NCBI GenBank assembly: GCA_017524145.1
Contig: JAFWUI010000031.1
Location: forward strand, 1 to 48,092
Length of the DNA stretch: 48,092 nt
From: Oxalobacter sp.
GTDB lineage: Bacteria; Pseudomonadota; Gammaproteobacteria; Burkholderiales; Burkholderiaceae_D
Direction of reading: 5' to 3'
Every line of letters starts with the position of its first letter. Position 1 is the first letter of the stretch. Positions 20,634 through 22,968 of the stretch are shown here, piece after piece. The notes under the pieces are model-generated. The model was given only the letters and a program-made list of their open reading frames with translations, made no database searches and was not told where the DNA came from. A program made the translations under genes and the position numbers.

Positions 20634-22136
20634 TCAGGGACTGCGGGGTTGCCGGTAAGAGCCGTCTTGGACCATTTCAGCTGCGCGGATAACGGCACGG
20701 GCTTTGTTTTCAGTTTCCTGGTATTCTGATTCAGGGTTAGAATCTGCCACAATGCCTGCTCCAGCCCCGATATACAGCATGTCTTTGTAAATCAGCCCTG
20801 TACGGATGGCTATGGCCAAATCCATTTCGCCACTGAATGAGAGATAACCGCAGGCTCCCCCATAAATTCCCCGCTTGACAGGTTCCATCTCATCAATGAT
20901 TTCCATGGCTCGGACTTTGGGGGCACCGGATAAGGTTCCTGCAGGGAAGGTCGCTTTCAGGACATCAAGGTTGGTCAGTCCGGGTTTCAGGATGCCTTCC
21001 ACATTCGAAACAATATGCTGGACATGGGAATATTTCTCAATCGCCATTTTTTCGGTCAGTTTGACAGATCCGGTTTCAGCAATACGTCCAATATCATTGC
21101 GGGCAAGGTCAATCAGCATGACGTGTTCGGCAATTTCTTTGGTGTCTGCCAACAGTTCTTTTGCCAGCAGCTCATCTTCCTCAGGCGTTGCTCCACGTTT
21201 ACGGGTACCTGCCAAAGGACGGATGACAATCTTCCTGCCTTCAGGTGAACTTTCTTGACGGACCAGGATTTCCGGCGATGATCCAACGATATACAGGTCA
21301 TCAAAATGGTAGTAATACAGGTAAGGTGAAGGATTCAGTGAACGCAGGGAGCGGTAAAGTGACAAAGGGGAATCTTTATAAGGTTTACGCATGCGGCGGG
21401 CAAGGACCACCTGCATGCAGTCACCATTGGAGATGTATTCCTTGGTCTTGACAACGGCCTGTTTGAAATCGTCTGGTGGAAAATCAGAGGTGATGGCAGT
21501 CACCCCGCTGCCGACCATCGATGGGGAAACAGGGGGTTTATCCAGCATGGCAATCAGTTCATTCAGCCGGGAAGTCCCGTTGGCATAGGCATCAGGCTGT
21601 GTTGGATCGGCATAGATAATCAGATAGATTTTTCCGGCAACGTTGTCGATGACAGCCAATTCTTCCGTCAGCAGCAATTGGATATCCGGGAAACCCAAGT
21701 CGTCATCAGGTGCTGAGTTTTTCAGCCGGTCTTCAATGTAACGGATGGTGTCATAGCCGAAATAGCCTGCCAGTCCACCGCAGAAGCGGGGCAGTTCCGG
21801 TTTGATGAAGACTTTGAACCGGGATTGGTATTTTGCAATGAAGTCCAACGGGTTGCCATGATGGGATTCGATGACTTTGCCCTGTTGGACGATTTCTGTC
21901 CTCATGTTGTTGACACGCAGGACAGTATTGGCTGGCAAGCCAATGATGGAATAGCGTCCAAAACGTTCACCGCCAACAACAGATTCTAAAAGGAAAGAAT
22001 TGCGGCCATCATTGTTGTCCTGGGTCAGCTTCAGATACAGGGAAAGCGGGGTATCCAGGTCTGCGATGGTTTCAATGATAAGGGGAATCCGGTTATAGCC
22101 TTGATCGGCCAGGGCTTGGAATTCCAATTCAGTCAT
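20634..22136 (-). CDS. trpE: Anthranilate synthase component I
   Basis: TrpE converts chorismate and ammonia, supplied by TrpG, to anthranilate, the first step of tryptophan synthesis. The 500-residue protein keeps the Trp feedback site (LLES at 49-52 with Ser63) and the chorismate-binding core ([16 protein letters not shown], then [35 protein letters not shown] and [20 protein letters not shown]). An AAGGAG site lies 7 nt before the ATG. Upstream is a Trp-codon leader peptide with an attenuator, so control by tryptophan supply is likely. The usual partners trpG, trpD and trpC do not follow; rsmB does. Confidence 0.97.
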
Positions 22137-22148
22137 GGGAGTTCTCCT

Positions 22149-22163
22149 TTCCGTATTACGGAA
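22149..22163 (-). repeat. Palindrome just upstream of the trpE ribosome binding site
   Basis: TTCCGTATTACGGAA is a 7+1+7 palindrome directly preceding the AAGGAG site of trpE, between the attenuator T run and the start codon. As RNA it can form a 5-bp hairpin with a 5-nt loop; as DNA it could be an operator half-site pair. The function is not shown by the sequence. Confidence 0.4.
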
Positions 22164-22168
22164 ATTAT

Positions 22169-22235
22169 AAAAAACGGGTGCAGCAACGCTGCAGAATCAA
22201 TCAGCTGTCAGTTTTGCCAGCGTCGCCACAACCCG
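22169..22235 (-). terminator. trp attenuator terminator
   Basis: On the minus strand a 5' arm (22235 down to 22218) pairs with a 3' arm (22191 down to 22175): CGGGT with ACCCG, then GTGGCG with TGCTGC (including G-U pairs, one bulged U), then ACGCTG with CAGCGT. That is about 17 bp, followed immediately by TTTTTT at 22174-22169. Both Trp codons of the leader peptide fall in or at the edge of the 5' arm, so a stalled ribosome would block the stem. A shorter hairpin (TGCAGC-GTT-GCTGCA, 22193-22179) competes for the 3' arm. Confidence 0.75.
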
Positions 22236-22297
22236 CCTGAAATCAGCTTGGATTGTGCATAAACCGTCTTTTTAGGGAGAAACATAAGTACTTTCAT
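22208..22297 (-). CDS. trpL: trp leader peptide
   Basis: This is a 29-codon open frame whose ATG overlaps the gph stop as ATGA and whose C-terminus reads GLWRRWQN before TGA. Two Trp codons separated by two Arg codons, positioned inside the terminator's 5' arm, are what an attenuation leader needs. Translation would be coupled to gph termination; a second in-frame ATG lies 4 codons on (22285). The trpE ATG is 71 nt downstream of the leader stop. The assignment rests on architecture, since leader peptides are not conserved in sequence. Confidence 0.75.
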   Translation of the reverse strand: MKVLMFLPKKTVYAQSKLISGGLWRRWQN

Positions 22298-22968
22298 GAA
22301 ATCAGGCCTGCTGCTTGGGACAGGTCAGGGACTACTGCATCAGGTCGCAGGTTTTCCACAGGAATGCCGTAATTATAACCATATGGCACTATAAATAGGA
22401 CACATCCTGCAGCACGTGCAGCTTTTGCATCATTTTCTGAATCGCCGATAGCAACAACCTGGTTGGGGAGAAGGCCGAATTTCCGGCAAGCCATCATCAT
22501 GGGGAAAGGGTCCGGTTTCTTCTTGGGAAAGGTATCAGCGCAGTAGATTACATCGAAAAAAGGATAGATGCCATTCTTTGCCAGCAGGGGTTCGGTAAAG
22601 ACAGAAGGTTTGTTCGTTACACAGGCAATCTTCAGTTTTTTGGCTGCCATCTGTTCCAAGCCTTCCCGTACGTAAGGATACATATGGCTACGTTCGCCAT
22701 TGACGGTACGGTAATGTTTGTAGAAAAGTGTCAAGGCTTCATCCAGCACCTTTGCGGTATCCTTTTCATCCAGATAGGCAGAAACGGTGCTTTTTACCAG
22801 GTGCGGGGTTCCCTTGCCGACAAACATCCGGATAGATGCTTCATCAATGGCAGGAAGCCCCATTTCCTGCAGCATCCCATTCAGTGCTGCATCAAGGTCT
22901 GGGACAGAGTCAATCAGGGTACCGTCAAGGTCAAGGATTACAGCATGGATGTCTTTCAGGGGAAACAT
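22294..22968 (-). CDS. gph: Phosphoglycolate phosphatase
   Basis: Gph is a HAD-superfamily phosphatase that removes 2-phosphoglycolate formed during DNA repair or oxygenation. The 224-residue protein carries motif I (LDLDGTLIDS; nucleophile Asp13, acid Asp15), motif II (CVTNKP) and motif IV (VAIGDSENDAKAARAAGC) with the helical cap between them. It lies 31 nt downstream of rpe, the common rpe-gph-trpE order. Its stop codon overlaps the start of the trp leader peptide. HAD substrate specificity cannot be proven from sequence, but the context supports gph. Confidence 0.9.
   Translation of the reverse strand: MFPLKDIHAVILDLDGTLIDSVPDLDAALNGMLQEMGLPAIDEASIRMFVGKGTPHLVKSTVSAYLDEKDTAKVLDEALTLFYKHYRTVNGERSHMYPYVREGLEQMAAKKLKIACVTNKPSVFTEPLLAKNGIYPFFDVIYCADTFPKKKPDPFPMMMACRKFGLLPNQVVAIGDSENDAKAARAAGCVLFIVPYGYNYGIPVENLRPDAVVPDLSQAAGLIS

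Follow-up and report, generated by a model that had tools for sequence, protein, structure and literature searches.

The trp attenuator of E. coli consists of a leader peptide with Trp codons located before the first trp gene and a terminator with a U-run, the position of the ribosome serving as the sensor (PMC1183508). For the yxjB/tlrB leader of B. subtilis (tylosin), no overlapping antiterminator is reported, and this leader is a precedent for control by ribosome occlusion (PMC6851288). In actinobacterial ilvB leaders, runs of Ile, Val and Leu codons overlap a candidate terminator hairpin; in S. coelicolor, codon substitution was without effect, and the mode of regulation is called unclear in that paper (PMC1262725).

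The DNA analyzed here, referred to as the window, is a 48,092-nt stretch of the genome of an Oxalobacter sp., whose assembly comprises 1.81 Mb in 55 contigs; the nearest named matches to its TrpE are Oxalobacter records. As shown in Table 1, a short ORF with Trp codons is present upstream of trpE, as in the leader of a classical attenuator. The longest version of this ORF (22297..22208, minus strand) has 29 codons and encodes MKVLMFLPKKTVYAQSKLISGGLWRRWQN, with the C-terminus GLWRRWQN directly before the stop codon; the ATGA at its 5′ end overlaps the gph stop. Both Trp codons fall within the 5′ arm of a long predicted stem, and trpE starts (at 22136) shortly downstream. The coordinates given in the initial annotation are exact.

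Table 1. Features of the gph–trpE region (positions in the window).
Feature	Position	Strand	Basis
gph (phosphoglycolate phosphatase), gene upstream of the leader	22294..22968	(-)	NCBIfam NF009695, 247.7 bits (cut-off 225)
trpE (anthranilate synthase component I)	20634..22136	(-)	NCBIfam TIGR00564, 541.8 bits (cut-off 517.7)
trpE leader ORF from the conserved start, MFLPKKTVYAQSKLISGGLWRRWQN-stop	22208..22285	(-)	ATG position across genus and family
In-frame MKVL extension from the ATGA of the gph stop	22286..22297	(-)	window copy alone among 10 genus leaders
W20 codon: first Trp in the window, second Trp of the family consensus	22226..22228	(-)	sequence, alignment
W23 codon: second Trp in the window	22217..22219	(-)	sequence
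Long stem, 5′ arm, within the leader ORF	22218..22235	(-)	folding
Long stem, 3′ arm	22175..22191	(-)	folding
U-run (T6)	22169..22174	(-)	run of 5–7 T in 8 aligned genus relatives
Small autonomous hairpin UGCAGC-GUU-GCUGCA	22179..22193	(-)	-7.2 kcal/mol; separated from the U-run by CCCG (four bases)
Hairpin UUUCCGU-AAU-ACGGAAA, immediately 5′ of the trpE Shine-Dalgarno sequence	22148..22164	(-)	folding, alignment
trpE Shine-Dalgarno sequence GGAG	22144..22147	(-)	sequence

The comparison of regions upstream of trpE covered 110 genomes. Apart from that of the window, they comprise 10 from the same genus, 81 from the same family (a subset of larger hit lists, spread over genera and not representing the whole family) and 18 from the same order. 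A leader with AW.WRR as its core precedes trpE in 73 of the 81 same-family genomes outside the genus, which supports the view, put forward in the initial annotation, that the element is a Trp attenuator. The residue preceding the core is E in 70 and G in 3 of these 73 leaders, and 71 have a third Trp. An ATG lies in range in 70 of them; it precedes the LW codon by 19 codons in 59 and by 18 codons in 8 of these 70, of which 65 begin with MF or MS; KK is present in most. The window has an ATG at this distance, KK near the start, an LWRRW core and trpE as the next gene. A homologous leader was found in 10 of the 11 genus regions, and the U-run is kept in the nine genus regions that were aligned. 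The exact leader core is rare beyond the family: of 250 order-level genomes, 8 matched the pattern GCYTGGCYNTGGCGACGCTGG, and 6 of these 8 belong to the same family. Taken from sequence comparison, the assignment of the window leader as a putative Trp attenuator is well supported.

The Arg codon after the LW codon is CGA in all 73 family leaders, with CGC (69 leaders) or GGC (4 leaders) as the following codon. The invariance of CGA (window 22225-22223) represents a constraint at the nucleotide level, for which antiterminator pairing does not account.

No covariance-model matches to Rfam 15, which includes the trp leader, were obtained at E values up to 5 for window positions 21900-22600, or at E values up to 1 in any of the 8 relatives submitted.

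The leader ORF had been regarded as born from the gph stop codon. This origin was rejected, since the conserved start lies 12 nt further in (22285) and, among the 10 genus leaders, only the window copy has the in-frame ATGA start at 22297; in all 10 an ATG is located 19 codons before the LW codon. The rejection covers the origin only and not the use of the upstream ATG in the window, where its anti-Shine-Dalgarno pairing is somewhat better than that of the conserved ATG (-3.4 versus -0.4). In L088, an order-level relative, the leader ATG lies in an ATGA at the gph stop.

The conserved leader start of the window is 8 nt from the gph stop. In the 61 of 79 leaders in which the gph frame could be followed, the leader ATG ranges between 14 nt upstream and 50 nt downstream of the gph stop, and in 52 it is 0–29 nt downstream. 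Anti-Shine-Dalgarno pairing of -4 kcal/mol or better was calculated for 2 of 77 leader starts (L003 and L004, both Oxalobacter), compared with 76 of 77 trpE starts. Since the leaders start near the gph stop and few have notable anti-Shine-Dalgarno pairing, it is plausible that leader translation in the family is coupled to gph by reinitiation.

A promoter-like sequence, GGTATAGT, precedes the leader in 56 of 89 regions and, wherever its location was inspected, falls inside the end of gph. In the examples seen it coincides with an ATA (Ile) codon in the gph frame. It is absent from the upstream region of the window; in the relatives it is possibly an internal promoter for the leader and trpE.

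In 69 of the 79 regions with a U-run, the small hairpin of the window counted among them, a hairpin with a folding energy of -5 kcal/mol or better was identified after the leader stop and no more than 4 nt from the U-run. Covariation in the terminator was scored for the 13 rows with AGG or GGG before the U-run: 96.6% of 89 cells were paired, and 5 cells were changed on both sides. The leader tail together with the first bases past the stop can form an alternative hairpin (e.g. GGCAAUCC with GAUUGCUGCC), which overlaps the 5′ arm of the terminator. This putative antiterminator hairpin was more stable with a leader's own spacer than with swapped spacers (-11.51 versus -9.25 kcal/mol, sd 0.24; n=66), none of 5000 swaps being as good, a result that relatedness among the species can inflate. 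The outcome was again 0 of 5000 when one row was used per distinct leader tail (48 rows). In four examples picked by us (L029, L144, L138 and L112), folded with a 13-nt ribosome footprint, the base of the terminator was paired at 0.22 with the ribosome at the first Trp codon and at 0.63–0.66 with the ribosome at the second Trp codon or later.

Other folding measures gave weaker signals. When the complete spacer was folded at equilibrium, only 8 of 66 family members switched at the first Trp codon. In folds that lacked the 3′ arm, as before its synthesis, the terminator 5′ arm was sequestered at 0.52 with the ribosome at the first Trp codon, compared with 0.46 for shuffled spacers, and at 0.28 and 0.03 with the ribosome at the second Trp codon and at the stop, respectively. 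The leader–spacer duplex was modest (mean z -0.92; 13 of 66 below -1.64). Twelve loci (eleven order-level ones plus L131, which is of the same family) were excluded from the equilibrium, co-transcriptional and swap tests, as were regions in which no U-run lay in range; the first two tests further exclude L003, L010, L011 and L145, which have a long gap. A first pairing score, taken over the last 8 bases in 79 regions, failed to tell terminator and antiterminator apart and was abandoned. Because these measures are weak, the case for an antiterminator in the relatives rests on the own-versus-swapped test and the four picked examples. With moderate confidence, the relatives may be described as classical attenuators with a kinetic antiterminator.

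Within the genus, the leader–spacer hairpin is good in L005-L008 and L010 (judged by the share of family spacers that equal a leader's own in fit: 0–14% and 0%, respectively), middling in L004 (36%) and L011 (44%), and poor in the window (89%) and in L003 (98%).

A separate complementarity was noted between leader AAAAAACG(G/T) and the terminator end CGUUUUUU (22273-22264 with 22178-22169 in the window), which within the genus is strongest in L004 (-16.9 kcal/mol). The AAAAAACG-CGUUUUUU pairing was better for own than for swapped partners (0 of 2000 swaps as good, both in 76 regions and in the 67 outside the genus). It was kept as a lead only: both partners are common to related species, and no compensation was apparent by eye in the KKH species. 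The advantage may reflect shared ancestry.

In the window, the T6 run directly adjoins the long stem, giving a predicted Rho-independent terminator between the leader and trpE. The folding energy of 22237-22175 is -27.2 kcal/mol, and the CCCG beside the U-run pairs with leader CGGG at 0.83–0.99. When the leader was kept fixed and the post-stop spacer was shuffled, 24 of 1000 shuffles matched the window's leader pairing, and 19 of 1000 did so with pairing also within 2 nt of the U-run; the corresponding counts in relatives were 29 (L005), 27 (L008) and 97 (L003) of 1000. The whole 151-nt region has a z of -1.07, with 29 of 200 shuffles equally good. The long stem by itself is marginal against shuffled spacers, and the element is counted as real because the leader and the U-run are conserved.

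Conservation in close relatives, to which the initial annotation had tied its reading, extends to the ORF and not to the stem, which is absent from the nearest sister, L003 (U-run-adjacent bases paired at 0.27 in folds without a ribosome). In L004 these bases pair elsewhere in the leader than they do in the window. Of 9 genus regions folded without a ribosome, 5 (window, L004, L005, L008 and L010) have their U-run-adjacent bases paired with the leader, at differing sites; the tendency to pair with the leader may therefore extend beyond the window copy, and the particular stem does not.

Folding of the window sequence with modeled ribosome footprints of 10, 12, 13 and 15 nt showed that the last three bases before U6, paired at 0.94 without a ribosome, are paired at no more than 0.02 when the A-site is at any codon from S16 (numbered in the conserved ORF) to the stop. 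The predicted stall site thus covers a terminator arm, as in occlusion of the tlrB type, and no antiterminator was found in the window, where 89% of family spacers equal the leader's own spacer in fit and the duplex z is only -0.80. Direct blocking of the stem by a stalled ribosome, without a separate antiterminator, had already been proposed; the folds agree with it for the window, and the relatives depart from it, the family appearing to have a separate antiterminator and L003 lacking the stem.

We propose that ribosomes, perhaps passed on from gph, translate the trpE leader. With Trp-tRNA scarce, a ribosome would stall at either Trp codon and mask the 5′ arm, leaving only the small hairpin, four bases from the U-run, and polymerase would read through into trpE. 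With Trp plentiful, the ribosome would depart, the long stem would fold and transcription would terminate. The switch would then be the presence of a ribosome, not a choice between two RNA hairpins. In the same folds, a ribosome waiting at the leader stop codon also blocks the long stem; termination would thus need fast release before polymerase passes, or a polymerase pause.

The intact ORF, the U6, the stem flush with the U-run and the precedent for occlusion all speak in favor of a working element. We give an even chance to the reading that the window carries a working, or recently working, occlusion attenuator that is a derived, simplified form of the trpE attenuator of the Oxalobacter family. 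A fuller evolutionary account can be offered only tentatively: an antiterminator switch may have evolved into pure ribosome occlusion, with the first sensor Trp codon and the antiterminator lost and the 3′ arm of the terminator then paired with the Trp codons, and the result would be a two-part Trp switch supplied with ribosomes from gph.

The window element would be either such a derived two-part variant or a case of early decay. In the second case, the antiterminator and the original terminator would be gone, the long stem would be a chance leftover, and trpE would be expressed by read-through with little control by Trp. As judged from the sequences, the trpE leader is eroding within the genus. 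The first family Trp codon (EAW) is missing from all 10 Oxalobacter leaders, which have SGG instead, a comparison made with 73 family leaders whose selection rule practically requires the EAW Trp. A single Trp codon is kept in L004, L010 and L011, the L007 leader contains an in-frame stop, and no leader was found upstream of trpE in L013. These losses, the missing stem in L003 and the shuffles that reproduce the window's pairing all fit decay; against it stand the U-run kept in the nine aligned genus regions, the intact leader ORF of the window and a stem that exactly abuts the U-run. Decay is possible, if somewhat doubtful.

It is unlikely that the window has retained a classical attenuator, with the small hairpin (22193-22179) as the terminator and an antiterminator formed by GCGACGCUGGC (22226-22216, in the leader) and GCAGCGUUGC (22192-22183). 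Such a topology would be like that of the relatives: the small hairpin stands at the homologous place with its -7.2 kcal/mol, and a 4-nt gap (AACG) before the U-run also occurs in a number of them. However, CCCG intervenes between the small hairpin and U6, a ribosome at the first Trp codon would cover the leader segment of the antiterminator, and the poor fit of the leader–spacer hairpin and the weak duplex given above tell against it.

Translational control by the hairpin before the trpE Shine-Dalgarno sequence, acting as the working element in place of a terminator, is very improbable, since this hairpin, although kept in the window and found in 78 of the 81 regions tested, which coincide only in part with the 81 family genomes (mean z -2.18 versus mononucleotide shuffles), ends just short of the Shine-Dalgarno sequence without covering it and alone offers no Trp sensor. 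The sequences of these hairpins differ between species.

Analysis of the remaining pathway genes showed that trpG, trpD and trpC are grouped on a different contig (L149) and that trpB is present in the genome. The gene next after trpE in the window is not trpGDC but rsmB (16S rRNA methyltransferase, above the NCBIfam cut-off; window 20637-19271). A second Trp-rich leader, MYKAIFSSIYLIPLRWRWRMPKA-stop, is located upstream of trpG (L149 3243..3172, minus strand; contig C48 of the window's genome) and ends in RWRWRMPKA-stop. The C-terminus WR.P.A-stop occurs upstream of trpG in 11 of 12 genus loci (set L163-L174), the twelfth, L170, being cut at a contig end. No clear U-run was seen downstream of the trpG leader in the window's genome, and no Rfam match was obtained in the 5 loci tested. 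The conserved W..P..stop ending could act as a nascent-peptide sensor.

The comparison has brought out a widely conserved trpE leader without an Rfam match in the regions tested. Among the matches listed in a search of the open-licence literature, no account of a trpE leader from the genus Oxalobacter or from the family was seen. Related leaders may be covered by the proteobacterial attenuator survey of Vitreschak and others, which is cited in PMC1262725. The class of mechanism is already known; a Trp leader that works by occlusion without an antiterminator would be a new variant. One genus and its family apparently provide a natural series from a standard three-part to a two-part attenuator, and such a series would make the minimum RNA for a ribosome-based amino acid sensor testable on sister sequences.

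The closest comparison is with the trpE leaders of the family, which have in common with the window a homologous leader peptide, its start position, the U-run and the hairpin before the Shine-Dalgarno sequence. In these relatives, unlike the window, there is an extra Trp codon (EAW), the leader tail is usually longer and the terminator hairpin is separate; an antiterminator is apparently present as well. The E. coli trp attenuator and the window share a leader with Trp codons, a terminator with a U-run and ribosome position as the (here predicted) sensor; in contrast to E. coli, no antiterminator was detected in the window, the Trp codons lie inside the terminator 5′ arm, trpGDC are elsewhere in the genome and the leader has no Rfam match. 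In the yxjB/tlrB leader, the sensor is an antibiotic and an RYR motif, not Trp codons, and translation is controlled too. The ilvB leaders resemble the window in that their Ile, Val and Leu codons overlap the candidate terminator, and the null result in S. coelicolor advises caution for the occlusion reading.
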